This document shows, piece after piece, positions 371-28,331 of a stretch of 35,789 nucleotides of DNA. The DNA lies in the NCBI GenBank assembly GCA_026225295.1, contig JAMFSN010000184.1:1-35789 (forward strand), in the 5' to 3' direction. This DNA comes from Frankia alni (lineage in GTDB: Bacteria; Actinomycetota; Actinomycetes; Frankiales; Frankiaceae). The translations under genes were made by a program, and so were the position numbers. Under the pieces are notes generated by a model. That model did not search any database and had not been told where the DNA came from. It saw only the letters and a list, made by a program, of their open reading frames with translations. The stretch's first letter is position 1. Each line of letters opens with the position of its first letter.

Positions 371-2083
371 CTACTCCCAGTTGGGCTTTTCGCCGTTCGC
401 GGAGTCGGCTCCGGAGGTCGAGCCGCCCCGGGAGGAGATCTTCGCGGTGTGGAAGCGGTCGGTCACGTCGTCGGCGTTCTCCAGGCCGGACGCACTGCCC
501 GGAGTCGCCCGGGCCTCCTGGACCGGTGAGCCCGGAGAGTCCAGGTCGAGCCCGACCCCGTTGTCCGGTGCTTCGAGGACCGGACCGTGACTGCCGACCA
601 GCGCGGTGGAACGGCGCGCGGACCGGCGGTAACTGGACCGACCGTCGTGGACGAGCCCGACGATGCGCTCCGCCAGCCCGGGCCATTCCCCCATCACTTC
701 GGCGAGGACCGGAGCCGGGGTGTCCGTGCTGGTCAGCGCGATGACCACATCGGCCTGCATCGCGGAGGCGGCCGTCACCGGCAGCTCGGCGAACGCGGGC
801 GTCAGCAGCAGCACGAGATCGACGACCGGCGCCCGGTCGGCCAGGATCGGCGCCAACCCTCCGGGCCGGGCGGCCCGGGTGGGCGCGACCCGGCTGTAGA
901 GGACGTGCCCCCGCCCCCGACCCGATGAGCGGGCCAGGCAGGTCGGCTCGTTCGCCCAGCGCGGCAGGTCGATCGACGATGCCCGCGGCAGGCGCTCAAG
1001 TGCGCCGCGGACGCCGGTCCGGTGCGCGGCGTCCAGGATCAGCACCACACCCTGCTCGTCCGACCAGCTCGCGGCCAGCCCGGCGACGACGTCCGGTGAC
1101 AGGTCCGTCGCCCCGCCCGGAGTGAGCGCCACGACCTTGACGGCCGGGGCCAGCACGGAACCCATCGACGCGACCAGATCCTCGGTCGGCACCCCGGACG
1201 CCCGCCGGCCCCCCGGGATCTGGGCCAACAGCGGGACGCCGAGCAGGTCGGCGGCCGCCTTGCCACCCTGGACGGTCGGGCGACGCAGGTAGAGACCCCA
1301 GATGACGGCGGCCGACAGGAACAAGCCGACGACGACGGCGACCAGCGCGTTCCGCAGGGGCTTGGGCGCCACCTGGGTCGCCGACTGCGGCGCCTCGGCC
1401 AGCTGCACGATCGACGGCGAGTTCGCGGCCGTGAGCTGGTTGGTGTTCTCCTGGGAGGTGATCGTGGTCAGCAGCCGCTGGCCGCTGGTGATCTGCGCGG
1501 ACAGCGCCTGGCTCTGGGCCGTCGTCAGGGTGGCCCCTTGATTCGCCTGTTCGGCGGTCAGCCGGGCCAGGGTGGCCGTGGTCTTGGTGCGGAGCGCCTC
1601 GAGCCGCTGCTGCGTCGCGTCGCTGCCGGCCCCGGAACTCGCCACGATCTCCTGGTAGACGGTCTCGGCCGTCTTGACCATGGTCTCGGCCCGGGCCTTG
1701 GTCGTATCCGTCGCCGAAATGACGAAGAAGTAACCGGCGTCGGACGGGCTGGCCGACAGTCGGCTGGCCACGTAGTCGTGACTCAGCCCCATGGCCGCGG
1801 CGACCTTGTCGACCGCGGCGGTCGACGCGGCCAGCTGGGCCTGCGTCCGGACCACCGCCGTCGGATCGACCGAGCTGCTACTGATCGCGGCGGAACCGCT
1901 ACTCAGAAAGACGCTCGCCGAAGATTTGTACTTTGCCGTTTCCTGCTTGGACAGCACGAGCGCGACGGCCGCAAAGACCACCACCACGATCGCGATTGCC
2001 ACCCAGCGGCGGAGGAGGGCACGAAAAAGAGACAACCCCTGGGTTGCCCAGCCACTCCCCCGGGAGCCGGTCGCAGCGGTCAC
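371..2083 (-). CDS. Wzz-type polysaccharide co-polymerase with degenerate BY-kinase-like domain
   Basis: A chain-length determinant (Wzz/PCP family) of about 570 residues. A membrane segment at about 27-45 follows the basic stretch ALLRRW. An extracytoplasmic, Ala/Thr/Gln-rich, probably helical region follows, and a second membrane segment at about 247-268 ends in YLRRP. The C-terminal half has the layout of a CpsD/BY-kinase ATPase domain, but where the Walker A loop should be (about residue 317) it reads TPGGATDLSP with no GK[ST]; only a VVLILDAAHR Walker A'-like strand remains. It is therefore probably a pseudo-kinase. The tail is acidic, Ser/Gly-rich and lacks a tyrosine cluster. The GTG at 2083 has GGGAGG just upstream; a GTG at 2101 is the alternative. 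It lies downstream of the flippase gene on the same strand after a 244-base gap. A TAnnnT -10-like TAAGCT sits at 2239-2244 in that gap. Confidence 0.8.
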   Translation of the reverse strand: MTAATGSRGSGWATQGLSLFRALLRRWVAIAIVVVVFAAVALVLSKQETAKYKSSASVFLSSGSAAISSSSVDPTAVVRTQAQLAASTAAVDKVAAAMGLSHDYVASRLSASPSDAGYFFVISATDTTKARAETMVKTAETVYQEIVASSGAGSDATQQRLEALRTKTTATLARLTAEQANQGATLTTAQSQALSAQITSGQRLLTTITSQENTNQLTAANSPSIVQLAEAPQSATQVAPKPLRNALVAVVVGLFLSAAVIWGLYLRRPTVQGGKAAADLLGVPLLAQIPGGRRASGVPTEDLVASMGSVLAPAVKVVALTPGGATDLSPDVVAGLAASWSDEQGVVLILDAAHRTGVRGALERLPRASSIDLPRWANEPTCLARSSGRGRGHVLYSRVAPTRAARPGGLAPILADRAPVVDLVLLLTPAFAELPVTAASAMQADVVIALTSTDTPAPVLAEVMGEWPGLAERIVGLVHDGRSSYRRSARRSTALVGSHGPVLEAPDNGVGLDLDSPGSPVQEARATPGSASGLENADDVTDRFHTAKISSRGGSTSGADSANGEKPNWE

Positions 2084-2327
2084 AGCGCCTCCCACCTGCA
2101 CCTACAACACGCCCCAGAGCAGGCCGTTCTGGTCGCACTCGCTGTTACCAACGGCTTGCGGACCGGCCGAACTCCCCGAGACCCGAACCGTCCACAAGCC
2201 GGACACCCGTAAGTGGACGGACCAGCGAACAAGTCAGAAGCTTAGTCCATCACCCAGAGCTACAACAGGTTGGCCCGCTGGCGAAATACAGGTAAGCCCG
2301 GAGATCGGGGCCTTTCCACGACATCGG

Positions 2328-4364
2328 CTATTGCGGGCCGTCCGGGCGCCGGCCCGGAGGTCGGTTTCCGGGGGTGCGGGAGGCCGCCGAGCGGGCGGCC
2401 GGCGGCGCCGGGAACGTGGGCGGGGGCGCCGGGAAGGTCGGCGGTCCGGCGGGCGGCTCGCCCCCGCGGCGGCGGACCGTCGGGTCCGGGCCGTCCCCGT
2501 CCCGGAACGGCTCGCCGAGGTGGTCGGCACCGTCCCGGGCAGGTGGCGCGGCGGGGGCCGGGCGCCGGCCGAGACCGCGTTCGCTCTCCGCGGCCCGGGC
2601 CTCCCGCCGCAACAGGATGAACGACAGCGGGACCAGGCTCCAGAAGGCGACCGCGTAGCCCCAGGCGGTGCCCTGGGCACCACCGACTTCCAACCCGACG
2701 ATGCTGCAGACGAGCAGCAGCGGGGCCTGCGTCGCGTGCAGCCGGAACGTCACCCGGGCCCGGCCCAGCGAATACAGCACGCACGCGGGGCCGATCATCA
2801 TCGCCGTGCCGGCCTGCTGGATCACCGAAGCGGGCAGGATGTGCCTGGTCAGCGGCCACGAATCGTGCAGCAGGGCGAATCCCACCCGGCCGGGCACCAG
2901 CAGGAACAGACCGCCCCAGGCCAGCCCGGTCAGCGTCACCAGCCCCGACAGCAGGCAGGCGGCCCGCATCATCTGCCGGGCGTCCATGTCCTTGCGGCGG
3001 GACAGCTCCGGGATCGCGAAGCTCAGGATGCCGACCGCCAGCACCTGGGTCGGACCGAGCAGCGTCTGCGTGCCCCGCAGGGCGCCGACGATCTCGAGCG
3101 TCCCGAGGGTGCCGATCAGCAGGGTGGAAGCCTGCAACGCCCCCTGCACGGTGACGAATTCGGCACTCAGGTAGCCGGCGATCTCCCGGTGCTCGGTGAT
3201 CCAGGCCCGGGCTTTGCGCACGTCCGGCCAGATCCCGGCCTGGACCGCCCCGACGAACGCCGCTCCGGCCGCCGCCGCTCCCCAGACCAGGATGTACGGA
3301 GCGGCCGAGCGCACCCCGTTCAGCAGCAGGGCGGCGAACGCCCCGCCCTGGATCACGCCCCACAGCAGGTCGTTGGCGGCCGCGGCGCCCGGACGACCCT
3401 GGGCGAAGAAGACGTACCGCCACGAGTCCTGCAGCAGCAGTCCCGGGATGACCACGCCCATGGCCAGCACCGCGGTCCCGGTGGGGCCGCCGAGGGCCAG
3501 GCCGGCCAGGGCGGTCACCGCCCCGACGACCAGGGCCAGGGTCGTCGCCGTTCCGGTTGCCGAGCGCGCCGCCCGCCGGAACTCGCCGCGGGTCACGTCG
3601 GAGAAGCGCATTCCCAGCGGCGCCGTACCGACGGAGCGGGAAAAACCGACCACCACCGCGAACACCGCGAACGCGATCCCGAACGCCCCGAACTCCGAGG
3701 CCGTCACCTGCCGGGCGACCAGGAACGACATGGCCGCGTTGGTCCCGCTGGACAGGATCTGGTCGAGCAGGGTGAGTACCGCCCGGTTGCGGCCTGAGGA
3801 GACCTTGCGGGCCGGCTGCTCGTCGCCCGGCCGCGACAGGGTCCGGCCCGGGCGGGCCGGGCGGACCCGGGTCGGCCCGACCCGCCCGGGCGGGGTCGCG
3901 GTCGACGGGACGTCGAGCCGTTCGAGCAGGTCGTCGACCGCATACCCGGTGCCGTCCGGCGCGCTGCGCTCGTAACTGCGCCAGTTGTATGGAGGGTCGG
4001 GATCGGTCCGCTCGAGCGGACGTGGGGATCCGTAGAGGCGGGGTTCGAAATCGATCCGCCCGAAGGAACCGAGCTGACCGAGGTCGATGTTGCCGGTGGC
4101 GTACTCGAAGAACGGGTATGACAGCTGTTCGTCCCGGCCGCCGCGACCTTCCCGCCGGCCGCCGCGAGCCTCCCGGCGACCCTGGCCCTCCCGGCGGGTC
4201 TGAGCCTCCCGGCGGGTCTGAGCCTCCCGGCGGGTCTGGCTCTCCCGGCGGGTCTGGTCGCCACGGCTCCCCGCGCCGTCCGCGCTCGACGGAGTCGGGG
4301 CAGCGTCAGGCGCGGCGCGGGCCTCGCCGTCTTCGCGCCCGCGACCCTCCCGTGCCCCGCTCAC
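2328..4364 (-). CDS. Polysaccharide (Wzx-type) flippase with long repeat-bearing N-terminal tail
   Basis: A multi-spanning protein of the polysaccharide biosynthesis/flippase (MOP) superfamily, about 678 residues. It is expected to move lipid-linked glycan units across the membrane. The membrane core runs from about residue 195 to 590 and begins with AVLTLLDQILSSGTNAAMSF, typical of Wzx-like proteins. It is preceded by about 190 residues of charged, presumably cytoplasmic sequence with QTRRE(A) repeats (about 36-65) and a more ordered stretch around LSYPFFEYATG. The last about 90 residues are rich in Pro, Gly and Arg, with two TFPAPP units. The GTG at 4364 is chosen because AGGA lies 6 bases upstream and it sits 86 bases after the methyltransferase stop. 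The reading frame is open further up to 4547, but that would overlap the upstream gene. The long tails are unusual for Wzx, whose usual length is 400-500. Confidence 0.8.
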   Translation of the reverse strand: MSGAREGRGREDGEARAAPDAAPTPSSADGAGSRGDQTRRESQTRREAQTRREAQTRREGQGRREARGGRREGRGGRDEQLSYPFFEYATGNIDLGQLGSFGRIDFEPRLYGSPRPLERTDPDPPYNWRSYERSAPDGTGYAVDDLLERLDVPSTATPPGRVGPTRVRPARPGRTLSRPGDEQPARKVSSGRNRAVLTLLDQILSSGTNAAMSFLVARQVTASEFGAFGIAFAVFAVVVGFSRSVGTAPLGMRFSDVTRGEFRRAARSATGTATTLALVVGAVTALAGLALGGPTGTAVLAMGVVIPGLLLQDSWRYVFFAQGRPGAAAANDLLWGVIQGGAFAALLLNGVRSAAPYILVWGAAAAGAAFVGAVQAGIWPDVRKARAWITEHREIAGYLSAEFVTVQGALQASTLLIGTLGTLEIVGALRGTQTLLGPTQVLAVGILSFAIPELSRRKDMDARQMMRAACLLSGLVTLTGLAWGGLFLLVPGRVGFALLHDSWPLTRHILPASVIQQAGTAMMIGPACVLYSLGRARVTFRLHATQAPLLLVCSIVGLEVGGAQGTAWGYAVAFWSLVPLSFILLRREARAAESERGLGRRPAPAAPPARDGADHLGEPFRDGDGPDPTVRRRGGEPPAGPPTFPAPPPTFPAPPAARSAASRTPGNRPPGRRPDGPQ
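4170..4259 (-). repeat. 18-bp tandem repeats inside the flippase gene
   Basis: Five consecutive 18-base units start at 4170, 4188, 4206, 4224 and 4242. The unit is ctcccggcgggtctgagc on the plus strand. The middle ones are nearly identical and the 4170 unit is degenerate. They encode the hexapeptide repeats QTRREA/S in the N-terminal tail. Because the unit is a multiple of three, copy-number change would alter tail length without breaking the frame. Confidence 0.85.
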
Positions 4365-4450
4365 CTTGTTTCCTGGTCCCCTCTTGCCTTGCCGTACGCC
4401 AGCCGGGCCGCCCGCCCGCCGCGGGACCGGGCGGTCCGATGGTCCCTCAG

Positions 4451-5743
4451 CTAGAGCACGACCGGGTGGGGAACCGGAACGATGAACCGGCCGCCCCGGC
4501 GCGCGTACTCGGCCTGCTGCGCCATGATCTCGGTCTTGACGTTCCACGCGAGCAGCAACAGGTAGTCCGGTTGCCGTTCGAGCAGCACCGCCGGGTCGAG
4601 AATCGGGATCCGCGCGCCCGGCACGTATTTGTCCTGCTTGTGCACGTTGCGGTCGACGATGTACGAGACCAGCGAGTGGTCGACACCGCTCGAGTTCAGC
4701 AGGGTCGCGCCCTTGGCGGCCGCCGCGTAGCCGGCGATCGTCCTACCGTCGGCGGCCAGCGAGGTCAGCAGCTCGACGAGTTCCCGTTGCACGGTGGCCA
4801 CGTCACCGGCGAACGTCTCGTACCGCTCGAACGTCGTCAGGCCGGCCGCCTGCTCGGCGGCCAGCACCCGCGCGACCTCCGGCGTCGGGGTGTCGGTCCC
4901 GGTGTCCGCCCGTTGCATCCGCCAGCGCAGGGTGCCGCCGTGGATCTCCGGAAACTGCTGGACGTCGACCAGTCGCAGCCCGTGCCGACGCATCAGCGCT
5001 TCCACCGCGGTGGTCGAGAAGTAGCAGAAGTGCTCGTGGTAGATCGTGTCGAACTCGGTGTGCTCGAGCAGCGGCCCGATGCCCGGGTTCTCGACCGAGA
5101 CGACGCCGTCGTCGGCCAGCAGGATGGCCAGGCCCTCGACGAAGCTGTTGAGGTCCGGGACGTGGGCCATCACGTTGTTGGCGATGATCACATCGGCGCG
5201 GATCCCCTCGGCGACCAGGCGGCGGGCCATCTCCGCGCCGAAGAACTCCTCGCGGGTCGGCACGCCGGCCGCGCGGGCGGCGGCCGCCGGGCCCGGGGTC
5301 GGCTCGATGCCCAGCACGTCGATGCCCCGGTCGATGAACGCCTTCAGCAGGTAGCCGTCGTTGCTCGCGACCTCGACGGCCAGGCTGCCGGGGCCGAGCC
5401 GGCGCTGGTCGATCAGCTCGATGACATGCTTCTCGGAGTGCTTCACGAGGTAGTCGCTGTACGAGGAGAAGTACGGGTAGTCCGCGTCGAAGATCTCCTC
5501 GGCCGGCAGCTCGTGGGTGAGCTGGACCAGGGTGCAGGTCTCGCAGAAGCCGCCCTCGAGCGGGACCGCCGGGTCCGGCGCGGCCAGCGCGTCCGCGCGG
5601 ACCAGCCGGTTCGCGATCGGGGTGGAACCCAGCGACAGGAAGGGCCGGGGCGGGGCGACGCCGCACGACCGGCACGCCGCCACGACCGTCGCGGCCAGGC
5701 CGCCCGCGATGGGGCTGGTCGGTGCCGCCTGGTCTTCTGACAT
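4451..5743 (-). CDS. NDP-sugar C-methyltransferase (TylCIII/NovU-like)
   Basis: A SAM-dependent methyltransferase of 430 residues in the three-part sugar C-methyltransferase family. The N-terminal zinc-binding part has paired cysteines C24-x2-C27 and C67-x2-C70. The central SAM-binding fold has AVEVASNDGYLL. The family-typical HEHFCYFS lies further on, and the C-terminal domain has KGATLLNSSG and LLLAWNVKTEI. Family members add a methyl to a keto-sugar nucleotide, usually at C3, giving branched deoxysugars; the substrate here cannot be read from sequence. The ATG at 5743 has a strong AGGGGGAG site just upstream, and upstream in-frame starts lack one. It is the first gene of a minus-strand set with the flippase and Wzz genes. 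Confidence 0.88.
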   Translation of the reverse strand: MSEDQAAPTSPIAGGLAATVVAACRSCGVAPPRPFLSLGSTPIANRLVRADALAAPDPAVPLEGGFCETCTLVQLTHELPAEEIFDADYPYFSSYSDYLVKHSEKHVIELIDQRRLGPGSLAVEVASNDGYLLKAFIDRGIDVLGIEPTPGPAAAARAAGVPTREEFFGAEMARRLVAEGIRADVIIANNVMAHVPDLNSFVEGLAILLADDGVVSVENPGIGPLLEHTEFDTIYHEHFCYFSTTAVEALMRRHGLRLVDVQQFPEIHGGTLRWRMQRADTGTDTPTPEVARVLAAEQAAGLTTFERYETFAGDVATVQRELVELLTSLAADGRTIAGYAAAAKGATLLNSSGVDHSLVSYIVDRNVHKQDKYVPGARIPILDPAVLLERQPDYLLLLAWNVKTEIMAQQAEYARRGGRFIVPVPHPVVL

Positions 5744-20261: not shown

Positions 20262-21662
20262 TCAGCGGCGGCGGCGGCCACCCCGGCCGGCCGGCGCGCC
20301 GTCCGGATCATCGTCCGGGTAGCCGCGGCCGTCCGCGTCGGGCCGCGGGTAGGAGATCCCGCCGCCCCCCATGGTCGGATGTTCGGCGTACTCCTCCCGG
20401 CCGGATCCCGGGCCGGGCGCCGCCTCCCGGTCGTTGCCCCCGGCCGGCTCCCGCGCGTCCTGATAGCCGCGGGGGGCGGGATAGGTCCGGGGGTCCGGGT
20501 AGGTGCGGGGCTCGGGGTAGGAGCGCGGACCGGCGCCGCCCGCGCGGGGCCGGCGGGCGCCCGGGTCGGGATACGTCCGGGGGGTGTCCCGGCCGACCCG
20601 GACGGTGTCCTCCACCCAGCCGAGGTCGGTGACCCGCTGGGTGTGCTCGTCATGGACGTCGTCTTCCTCACCGGCCGACCGGGCCGACCGGATCGCCCAG
20701 TCCACGTCGGTGACCCGCATCGTGTGCTCGTCGTGCACCTCGTCGCCGGCCGGTCCGGGCCGGCGCAGCCCGCGCTCGGCCCAGCCCTCGTCGCCGACCC
20801 GCATGGTGTGTTCGTCGTGCAGGTCGTCGCCCCCGGCCGGCGCGGGCACCGGCCGCAGGCCCCGCTCGGTCCACTCGACGTCGCCGACCCGCATGGTGTG
20901 TTCGTCGTGCATCCCCGCGGCCCCGTCCGCCCCGCGCCGGGCGAACCCGTTCGCCGCGGCTGCGCCCGGGCGCGCCCGCGCGCCGGCCGGCCCGGCCGCC
21001 CGACCGCCCGGCGGTCCGCCGGTCGATCCCGTCGACGCGGCGCCGGGCGCCCGGGCGCCCCGGTGCGTGAACGCCTCGACCAGCAGCGCGATGACCACCG
21101 GGAACAGGACCGCCACGGCCAGCCCGCCCCCCAGCACCTTGCTGCGGGCCAGATCAAGCCGCTCGGGCGAGTTCGACGAGATCACCGACAGGCTGATGAA
21201 CAGGTTGGCGGGCGCCTTGGCCGCCTGCTGGCGGTCGGCCAGCTCGGACCGCAGCAGGCTGATGACCCCGTCCAGCGTCCGGGAGGCGATCTCCGGGTGG
21301 GTGCTGGTGGCCGCCACGAGCAGCACGGGCGCGCCGGGAGCGTGCGGATCGCTGTGGACCGTATAGGTGGCCGAAGCGCCCTGGGTGCGCAGTCCGTCGG
21401 CGGCGCTGTCGGTCGTCGAGGCCCGGGCCAGGATGGCGGCGGTCGACGCCATGTTGCTGCTGAAGCTCAGGTACGGGTTGGCCAGGGTCGGATCGGCCGC
21501 CGACACGACCGTCGGGGGCAGCAGGACGACGGTCGCGGTGCTGCGGTAGGAGTACGGCGTCCGCTTGGCCATGATGTTGGTGCCGAACGCGAGCACGACG
21601 AAGAGCGGTACGACGATGTACCACCGTCGCACGAGCACGCGGAGCGCGTCCCTGAGGTACAC
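20262..21662 (-). CDS. Wzz-type polysaccharide co-polymerase with repeat-rich cytoplasmic tail
   Basis: A 466-residue protein in three parts. A Wzz-like N-terminus (YLRDALRVLVRRW) leads into membrane segment 1 (about 14-32). An extracytoplasmic domain to about 176 follows, with YSYRSTATVVLLPP and a Ser/Ala-rich region, and then membrane segment 2 (about 177-197). The tail of about 270 residues has no kinase domain. It has four HDEHT(M/Q)RV(G/T)D motifs at 252, 282, 310 and 337, then Tyr-Pro repeats (RTYPDP, RSYPEP, RTYPAP; about 360-402), then a basic end. The threonines have V at +3 and acidic residues before them, as in many phospho-threonine FHA ligands; this is inference. The GTG at 21662 has GGGGAG seven bases upstream; an ATG at 21722 lacks such a site. 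It probably heads the operon with MFS, propeller, nucleotidyltransferase and deacetylase. Confidence 0.8.
   Translation of the reverse strand: MYLRDALRVLVRRWYIVVPLFVVLAFGTNIMAKRTPYSYRSTATVVLLPPTVVSAADPTLANPYLSFSSNMASTAAILARASTTDSAADGLRTQGASATYTVHSDPHAPGAPVLLVAATSTHPEIASRTLDGVISLLRSELADRQQAAKAPANLFISLSVISSNSPERLDLARSKVLGGGLAVAVLFPVVIALLVEAFTHRGARAPGAASTGSTGGPPGGRAAGPAGARARPGAAAANGFARRGADGAAGMHDEHTMRVGDVEWTERGLRPVPAPAGGDDLHDEHTMRVGDEGWAERGLRRPGPAGDEVHDEHTMRVTDVDWAIRSARSAGEEDDVHDEHTQRVTDLGWVEDTVRVGRDTPRTYPDPGARRPRAGGAGPRSYPEPRTYPDPRTYPAPRGYQDAREPAGGNDREAAPGPGSGREEYAEHPTMGGGGISYPRPDADGRGYPDDDPDGAPAGRGGRRRR
20625..20909 (-). repeat. Four spaced repeats encoding HDEHTMRV motifs
   Basis: Thirty-base units lie at 20880-20909, 20790-20819, 20706-20735 and 20625-20654. 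The first two are identical in DNA and the third and fourth differ at a few bases. They encode HDEHTMRVGD (twice), HDEHTMRVTD and HDEHTQRVTD, each followed by an acidic/aromatic segment (VEW, EGW, VDW, LGW). Spacing is 30, 28 and 27 residues. Confidence 0.9.
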
Positions 21663-21849
21663 CGTTCGGCTCCCCTGTTCGTCCCACCCGGCCGGCCCTC
21701 GCGGGCCCGCTCGCAGACCCATCGTGACGTTTCACGTCCGAGCGGTCTGCATCCGGCCCCTCCGGACAAGGTTCAGGTGACGCCGCCGGCCAACCCGATC
21801 CCGGTTCCGACGATCTGCCACCACCGGCCGGGTCCGGCCCGGCAGACCG

Positions 21850-25615: not shown

Positions 25616-25834
25616 ATGGAGCGCGTCTACGGAGTGGCCGGAATGACCTGCGAACATTGCGTGCGCGCGGTCAGCTCAGAGGTCGGCGACGTCGACGGGG
25701 TCACGGCGGTGGTGGTCGATCTGCGGGCCCGGACCGTGGTGGTCAGTGGTGACCGGTTCAGCGACGACGCGGTGGCCGCCGCGATCGAGGAGGCCGGCTA
25801 CCAGTTGGCCACCACGGGCGCGCGCCGTGAGTAG
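25616..25834 (+). CDS. copZ: Copper chaperone (CopZ-like HMA protein)
   Basis: A 72-residue heavy-metal-associated domain protein. GMTCEHC places the Cu(I)-binding cysteines at C12 and C15, and the pattern of the ferredoxin-like HMA fold follows. It carries Cu(I) to CopA and perhaps CsoR. The ATG at 25616 has GAGGAGA upstream and begins [12 protein letters not shown]. Its stop overlaps the copA start by eight bases, indicating coupling. The operon is driven by the CsoR-boxed promoter. Confidence 0.92.
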
Positions 25835-28331
25835 CCCGGTCATACCGCCGATCGAGCCGCCCCGCGCCCCGCTCGACCCGGTCCGGCCGCCCGGTCCGGC
25901 CGACCCGGCGAACCCGACCAGCACCGTCGCGCTGGCCCTGGGCGGGATGACCTGCGCGGCGTGCGCGGCCCGGATCGGGAAGCGGCTGAACCGGATCGAC
26001 GGCGTCACGGCCACCGTCAACTACGCCACCGAGCAGGCCCACGTCCGGTACGACCCGGTCCGGGTCAGCCCGCGCGACCTGGTCAGCGCGGTGGAAGCGG
26101 CCGGCTACCGGGCGCACCGGCCTGGGCCGGACCGGTCCCCGACCGCCGAACCGGACGGGACCGGGCCGGACGGGACCGGGCCGGCAGCGGACCGGGCGGG
26201 GCGCCGATCCGACCTCCGCCGGCTGATCATCACCGCCCTGCTGGCCGTACCGGTCGTGATCCTGGGCATGGTGCCGCCCACCCAGTTCGACGGCTGGCAG
26301 TGGGTCTCCCTGGCCCTGGCTCTGCCGGTGGTCAGCTGGGGCGGTTGGCCGGTGCACCGCGCCGCGCTGGCCGCGGCCCGGCACCGGACCACCACGATGG
26401 ACACCCTGGTCTCGCTCGGCACCCTCGTCGCCTTCGGCTGGTCGCTGTACGCGCTGTTGCTCGGGTCGGCCGGGCGGATCGGGATGCGGATGGACCTCGC
26501 TCTCACCGCGTCGACCGGCGCGGCCGGCGGGGAGGTCTACTTCGAGGTGGCCGCCGGCGTGACCACCTTCATTCTGGCCGGCCGCTACGCCGAGGCGCGG
26601 GCCCGCCGCCGGTCGGGGGCGGCGCTGCGGGCCCTGCTCGACCTGGCCGCCAAGGACGTGGCGGTCCTGCGGACCGGCAGCGACCAGCCGGCCGGGGACG
26701 CCACCGGAACCGGCGGGGTCGACCGCGAGGTACGCATCCCGGTCGACCAGCTGATGGTCGGCGACCGGTTCGTGGTCCGGCCCGGCGAGAAGATCGCCAC
26801 CGACGGCGTGGTGGTGGTCGGCGCGGGCGCGGTCGACGCGAGCTTGCTGACCGGCGAGAGCGGACCGGTCGAAGTGGGCGTCGGCGACGCCGTCACCGGT
26901 GCGACGGTCAACGTCGGCAGCCGGCTCGTCGTGCGGGCCACCGGGGTTGGCGCCGACACCCGGTTGGCCCGGATCGGCCGGCTGCTGGCCGACGCCCAGT
27001 CCGGGTCGGCGCCGGCGGCCCGCCTGGCCGACCGGATCAGCGCGGTGTTCGTCCCGGTCGTCGTGGGGGCGGCACTCGCGACCCTGCTCGGGAGCCTGGC
27101 CGCGGGGCTCGGTGCGGCGCACGCGATCACGGCGGCGGTCGCGGTGCTGATCGTGGCCTGCCCGTGCGCGCTGGGCCTGGCCACCCCGACCGCCCTACTG
27201 GTCGGAACCGGCCGCGGCGCCCAGCTCGGCATCCTGGTCAAGGGGCCGGAGGTGCTCGAACAGACCCGTCGGGTCCGGGTCGTCGTCCTGGACAAGACCG
27301 GCACGCTGACCTCCGGGTCGATGTCCCTGCACGGGGTGCACCCGGCGGCCGGGATCTCCGCCGCCGAACTGCTGGACCGGGCCGGGGCGGTCGAGGCGGG
27401 CAGCGAGCATCCGGTCGGGCGCGCGGTCGCGGCGGCCGCCGCCCGGCGGGGAGCACTCCCGCCGGTCACGGACTTTGCCAGCGAGGCCGGGCGGGGCGTC
27501 ACCGGCTCGCTGGTCCGGCCGCCGGCCGCCGTGGTCGGACCGCCGGCCGCCGTGGTCGCGGACGACCGCGCGCCCGGGGACGGCAGCGCCGGGGCGGCCC
27601 GCGCCGAATCCGTCCAGGTGATCGCCGGGAAGCCGTCGTTCCTGGCCGGACATGGCCTACGACCTGCCCCGGAGACCGCCGCGGCCGTCGAGCGCATCGA
27701 GGCCGCCGGCCGGACAGCGGTGCTGGTCGGGTGGGGCGGCCGGGTGACCGGGGCGCTCGAACTGGGCGACCAGGTCCGTCCGACCAGCGCCCAGGCGGTG
27801 GCCGACCTGCGCCGGCTGGGTCTGCGGCCCATGCTGCTGACCGGCGACAATCAGCGGGCCGCCCGGGCGGTCGCGGCGAGCGTCGGGATCGCCGCCACCG
27901 ACGTGCTGGCCGAGGTCAGCCCGGAAGGCAAGGTCGAAGCGGTGGCCGGGCTCCGGCGGGCCGGCCAGGTGGTCGCCATGGTCGGCGACGGGGTCAACGA
28001 CGCGGCCGCGCTGGCCACCGCCGATCTCGGCCTGGCCATGGGCACCGGTGCGGACGTCGCCATCGAGGCGGCCGACCTCACCATCGTGCGGGGCGACCCC
28101 CGGGCGGTCGCGGACGCGATCCGGCTGTCCCGCCGGACGCTCCGGACGATTCACGTGAATCTGTTCTGGGCGTTCGCCTACAACGCGGCGCTCAGCCCGC
28201 TCGCGGCGCCCGGGCTGGTCGGGCCCCTGTTGGCCGGGGCGGCCATGGCGTTCTCGAGCATCTTCGTGGTGACCAACAGCCTGCGCCTGCGGCGCTTCCA
28301 GCCGTGGGCCATTTCGTCGACCAGCCCCTGA
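25827..28331 (+). CDS. copA: Cu(I)-exporting P1B-type ATPase
   Basis: An 834-residue copper pump in the membrane. One N-terminal HMA domain has GGMTCAAC (C43, C46). TGES (342-345) is the actuator motif. C445-P446-C447 in the transmembrane metal site, with the later [11 protein letters not shown] and MAFSS, is the P1B-1 (Cu+) signature. D489-KTGT is phosphorylated, H528-P529 is the P1B nucleotide-domain His-Pro, and [10 protein letters not shown] follows. A Gly/Ala/Arg-rich insert near 570-590 is a mild oddity. The GTG at 25827 overlaps the copZ stop, and the frame before it is chance open frame. It exports Cu(I) from the cytoplasm. Confidence 0.96.

Follow-up and report, generated by a model that had tools for sequence, protein, structure and literature searches.

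A kinase-less polysaccharide co-polymerase of Frankia alni with repeated acidic–threonine motifs in its predicted cytoplasmic tail, putative sites of threonine phosphorylation

The window discussed here – the whole stretch of DNA that was analysed, 35,789 nucleotides from Frankia alni – is one entire contig (C251) from a draft genome of 5.8 Mb. It contains an open reading frame at 20262–21722 on the minus strand, encoding 486 amino acids if counted from the first ATG. The GTG at codon 21 of this frame is preferred as the start, because orthologues begin at the equivalent codon (VYLRD...); with that start, the residue numbers 252, 282, 310 and 337 assigned to HDEHT in an earlier, sequence-only reading of the DNA are exact. 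The gene has pth and rplY directly upstream and an MFS gene downstream, and genes of the glycosyltransferase, epimerase and methyltransferase kinds lie at 4–17 kb in the window; in relatives, no conserved order with pth or rplY was found within about 9 kb. The protein and the parts of it that matter to our discussion are as follows:

20262–21662, minus strand: kinase-less polysaccharide co-polymerase, 466 amino acids from the GTG (486 if the ATG at 21722 is used), start placed by comparison with relatives
21060–21662, minus strand: co-polymerase core, consisting of TM1, an extracytoplasmic α/β domain and TM2 (AlphaFold model and structural match)
20265–21059, minus strand: cytoplasmic tail, predicted to be mostly disordered (AlphaFold pLDDT)
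20886–20909, minus strand: copy 1, HDEHTMRV, residues 252–259
20796–20819, minus strand: copy 2, HDEHTMRV, residues 282–289
20712–20735, minus strand: copy 3, HDEHTMRV, residues 310–317
20631–20654, minus strand: copy 4, HDEHTQRV, residues 337–344
20595–20612, minus strand: fifth, degenerate site, EDTVRV (acidic-Thr-x-x-Val)
20463–20579, minus strand: Tyr/Pro-rich segment with R-(T/S)-Y-P-(D/E/A)-P repeats, following the Thr repeats

The description of the protein as Wzz-like, also from the sequence-only reading, is correct if taken to mean a polysaccharide co-polymerase, since its AlphaFold core – in a model built from 34 homologues – resembles KpsE (Foldseek E 4e-5, Z 12.2), Wzc (Z 10.3, rmsd 2.7 over 172 residues) and WzzE (Z 8.8). 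In Pfam, the Wzz family PF02706 does not match the window protein and gives weak matches in five of the eight alignment members (best E 8e-4). On the strength of the predicted structure, the protein is a polysaccharide co-polymerase, with two membrane helices (TM1, about residues 14–34; TM2, about residues 171–201) flanking an α/β extracytoplasmic domain. Model confidence is mostly above 90 for residues 1–201 and mostly below 55 from residue 211 onward. The tail beyond TM2 is thus predicted to be disordered and contains no kinase domain, in agreement with the earlier reading, and the protein falls outside the PCP-2a/BY-kinase class, which is recognised by a cytoplasmic BY-kinase with Walker motifs.

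All four HDEHT(M/Q)RV copies reported for the tail are there, sharing H-D-E-H-T-x-R-V-x-D-x-x-W, and EDTVRV, overlooked at the time, can be added to them. The tail therefore has five acidic-Thr-x-x-aliphatic sites, a number reached in none of 5000 shuffles of the tail (maximum, three). The sequence-only reading had named restriction of the motif to this strain as a refutation, and the literal sequence HDEHTxRV is indeed private to this genome. HDEHT(M/Q)RV is absent from the 34 other genomes of a 35-genome Frankiaceae sample that includes the window's own, Candidatus Frankia californiensis and Ca. F. meridionalis, and a tandem pair of the motif is absent from a collection of about 85,000 species, searched with CAC as the sole codon allowed for the first His and CGN for Arg, in which the records nearest the window's genome may be missing. 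A single motif in Ca. Frankia californiensis (RYNEQPTVRTTVDRAFRSD) looks convincingly homologous to the repeat by eye; as 1237 of 10,000 shuffles (about 12%) score as high, descent of the repeat from it is not claimed. Separately, the Tyr/Pro-rich RTYPDP segment is similar in composition to a linker, also rich in Tyr and Pro, in the FhaA-like protein of this genome (L140), a likeness that may reflect no more than low complexity.

What is kept in relatives is a more abstract pattern, defined here – with thresholds of our own choice – as a Thr preceded by two or more acidic residues within five positions and followed by I, L, V, F or M exactly at +3. All eight distinct orthologue tails in the Frankiaceae have it (1.2 expected), in forms such as VELETSEF, NDTERTYRI, DLDYTAEF, VDDATVVL and RETTMVL, with one or two sites per tail and without repeats. 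A hydrophobic residue at other offsets was found in two to four of the eight tails, a Ser control with hydrophobic +3 in three (1.3 expected), and no offset or Ser control exceeded four to five.

The pattern extends beyond the family. Among class-wide homologues (84 tails in 50 clusters), the motif occurs in 10.9 clusters, compared with 3.7 expected and with 0 of 1000 shuffles as high, or in 10.4 (again 3.7 expected) once the window protein is removed. Because these tails had already been inspected, a held-out set of 72 tails was drawn from fresh genomes belonging to a single different family. The motif is present in 23 of them (5.2 expected; 0 of 1000 shuffles as high), and the Ser control gives 3 against 5.9 expected. 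As hydrophobic residues are also raised at other downstream offsets in this set, some of the signal is a plain hydrophobic patch after an acidic Thr, and the fairest test is one restricted to Thr sites in acidic surroundings: of 122 non-redundant sites of this kind, 37 (30%) are hydrophobic at +3, compared with 17% at other offsets (p about 1.5e-4 for +3), and Ser shows no peak. Overall, enrichment of the motif in the tails of kinase-less homologues from actinobacteria is about threefold or more (at least two thirds of the class-wide tails are without it), and there is no enrichment in the C-termini of 133 gene-like neighbouring ORFs used as a control (14 vs 12.6 expected). Judged by sequence, this putative phosphosite pattern recurs in the tails of actinobacterial co-polymerases that have no kinase. 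The restriction to one strain that would have refuted the sequence-only reading applies to the literal motif and not to the abstract pattern behind it, which is found in all eight Frankiaceae orthologues and is enriched and centred on +3 in two separate actinobacterial sets.

The homologues show further diversity in their tails and architecture. Many genomes have two co-polymerase paralogues near each other, one short-tailed and one long-tailed (L098–L110 and L176–L200, family f17), with the acidic-Thr motif often present in the long tail. One group of tails (L148–L153) terminates in a conserved sequence of another kind, close to DDEPYVVFDPTRPGR, and another (L122, L124, L130 and L131) shares the ending INTNEWVWPGD...RNPFFDPEFTKRQL; both endings look like further docking motifs. 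In L060, L061, L136 and L016 – including Streptomyces roseicoloratus (L136) and Ca. Frankia californiensis (L016) – the co-polymerase domain is fused, in either order, to an O-antigen polymerase/ligase-like membrane domain.

How the motif might work is suggested by published phosphosites. Mycobacterium tuberculosis peptides that lose Thr phosphorylation on PknA depletion are acidic at −1 and at −3 to −6 and have Leu or Val at +3 (PMC7164672), a pattern that the five acidic-Thr-x-x-Val sites of the window protein fit. FHA domains bind phosphothreonine, often with a contribution from the +3 residue, the preference for which differs among FHA domains (PMC4037201), and in mycobacteria the flippase MviN, once phosphorylated, is bound by FhaA (PMC11898655, citing Gee et al. 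2012). The window's genome encodes about 22 Ser/Thr kinases and 11 FHA domains, with two of each within about 8 kb of one another on contig C265. For these reasons – the PknA pattern, FHA reading of +3, the MviN–FhaA precedent and the genome's own complement – we favour phosphorylation of the tail followed by FHA binding. The proposal of a multivalent phospho-Thr platform has support in part: orthologues keep the pattern and a published Thr phosphosite pattern is matched, but the proximity to FHA or Ser/Thr kinase genes that the earlier reading had suggested looking for was found in none of 44 loci (the window and 43 neighbourhoods), using an FHA model that did find known FHA loci, two of them outside its training. 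In the literature, we found neither phosphoproteomic nor binding data for any member of the co-polymerase group, and nothing on a phosphorylated Wzz-type protein or its FHA partner.

The main rival is that the Thr motif is a short docking motif, working independently of phosphorylation through its acidic patch and hydrophobic residues, for a cytoplasmic partner such as a polymerase, a glycosyltransferase or a BY-kinase encoded elsewhere. In Gram-positive bacteria, the C-terminal tail of the CapA/Wzd adaptor activates CapB/Wze, and the tail discussed here might be compared with it. Many sites do consist of an acidic stretch that leads into a few hydrophobic residues (DDDTQVF, DDDATAVIVV, SDDDYTVVVV), in keeping with the rise at several offsets in the held-out set, and further Wzz-family proteins are encoded elsewhere in the window's genome. 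However, the signal demands Thr, Ser not sufficing, and peaks at +3, neither of which would be expected of a plain hydrophobic motif, and no BY-kinase gene lies near the co-polymerase gene in any of the 44 loci; we consider docking of this kind unlikely, but worth keeping in mind.

We give rather less credence to the idea that a short piece of the tail was recently duplicated in tandem, without specific function, in a disordered region that tolerates such change. Disordered tails are known to be prone to tandem expansion, and the exact repeat is limited to one genome, as such an origin would have it. Yet the copies have not drifted evenly: pairwise comparison of their eight core codons gives 10 synonymous and 3 non-synonymous differences, whereas the 14 codons around the core give about 9 and 48, respectively (the pairs not being independent in either count), so that the protein sequence of the core appears to have been kept while its DNA and the linkers drifted. 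Moreover, the abstract motif is maintained in orthologues that have no repeats. Least probable by a wide margin is that the HDEH units bind a metal ion, making the tail metal-responsive or metal-crosslinked: the four H-D-E-H units do provide eight histidines, and a P-type metal ATPase with an HMA domain is encoded at 25746–28331, but pth, rplY and trpS separate its gene from that of the co-polymerase, and we rank this idea low because the paired histidines are kept at no orthologue site, unlike the Thr and the +3 residue.

Phosphorylation of the tail with FHA reading would, in outline, proceed as follows. Transmembrane Ser/Thr kinases would phosphorylate the tail threonines, FHA-domain proteins would bind the resulting phosphothreonines, and this binding would couple assembly or activity of the co-polymerase to growth and cell-wall signalling. 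In an oligomer, four or five sites per chain would create a highly multivalent docking surface, whereas the relatives would manage with one or two; the best reading is that the window protein has amplified a tag found singly or in pairs in its orthologues. Taken together, the sequence comparisons suggest that threonine phosphorylation controls polysaccharide export here. We think phosphorylation by a kinase, taken by itself, slightly better than an even bet, and the full chain – a kinase-less co-polymerase whose tail is phosphorylated by a Ser/Thr kinase and then read by FHA proteins – somewhat short of even.

The window encodes a second protein of interest in this respect:

371–2101, minus strand: second Wzz-type protein, with a PF02706 match and a kinase-like region that lacks Walker A (no G-x-G-K-T/S)
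452–472, minus strand: DDVTDRF (acidic-Thr-x-x-Phe) at the C-terminus of this protein; STDRF in three other Frankiaceae genomes

Its orthologues in those three genomes likewise lack Walker A and keep STDRF, and together these proteins form a pseudokinase co-polymerase family with a degenerate BY-kinase-like half. Nearby, at 2328–4547 on the minus strand, lies a gene for a flippase-like membrane protein that matches no Pfam family; its N-terminal cytoplasmic extension is long (about 230 residues) and charged, and its C-terminal region contains DPTVRRR. In the Frankiaceae, acidic-Thr sites are thus found in both kinase-less and dead-kinase co-polymerases, which would fit a replacement of tyrosine control by threonine control. 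More tentatively, with the balance of probability against it, one may imagine a widespread actinobacterial class of kinase-less or dead-kinase co-polymerases in which the Wzc/CapAB tyrosine switch has given way to a Thr-phosphorylation/FHA switch in a disordered tail, the window protein being its extreme multivalent form.

The control of surface polysaccharide export and chain length in actinobacteria without Wzc-type kinases is poorly known. If the proposal is true, a Thr motif in the co-polymerase tail would tie polysaccharide export to the PknA/PknB–FhaA network of cell-wall growth. It also offers a simple rule – acidic residues, Thr and a hydrophobic residue at +3 in place of a BY-kinase domain – against which existing actinobacterial phosphoproteomes can be examined.

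With Wzz, KpsE and Wzc, the window protein shares two membrane helices and an α/β extracytoplasmic core; it differs from them in the small size of this core, in its long, predicted disordered cytoplasmic C-terminal tail with Thr motifs, and in having neither a BY-kinase nor a tyrosine cluster. BY-kinase-type Wzz fusions in related genomes have the same N-terminal co-polymerase module, but carry a tyrosine-kinase domain, and none of 14 such proteins has an acidic-Thr-x-x-hydrophobic site in its last 110 residues. In its proposed working, the window protein would resemble MviN as bound by FhaA: MviN, too, is a membrane protein that serves glycopolymer export, and an FHA protein binds its cytoplasmic part, which is phosphorylated. 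The two differ in that MviN flips lipid II and has a pseudokinase domain, whereas the window protein is a co-polymerase whose tail is predicted to be disordered and has putative phosphosites.
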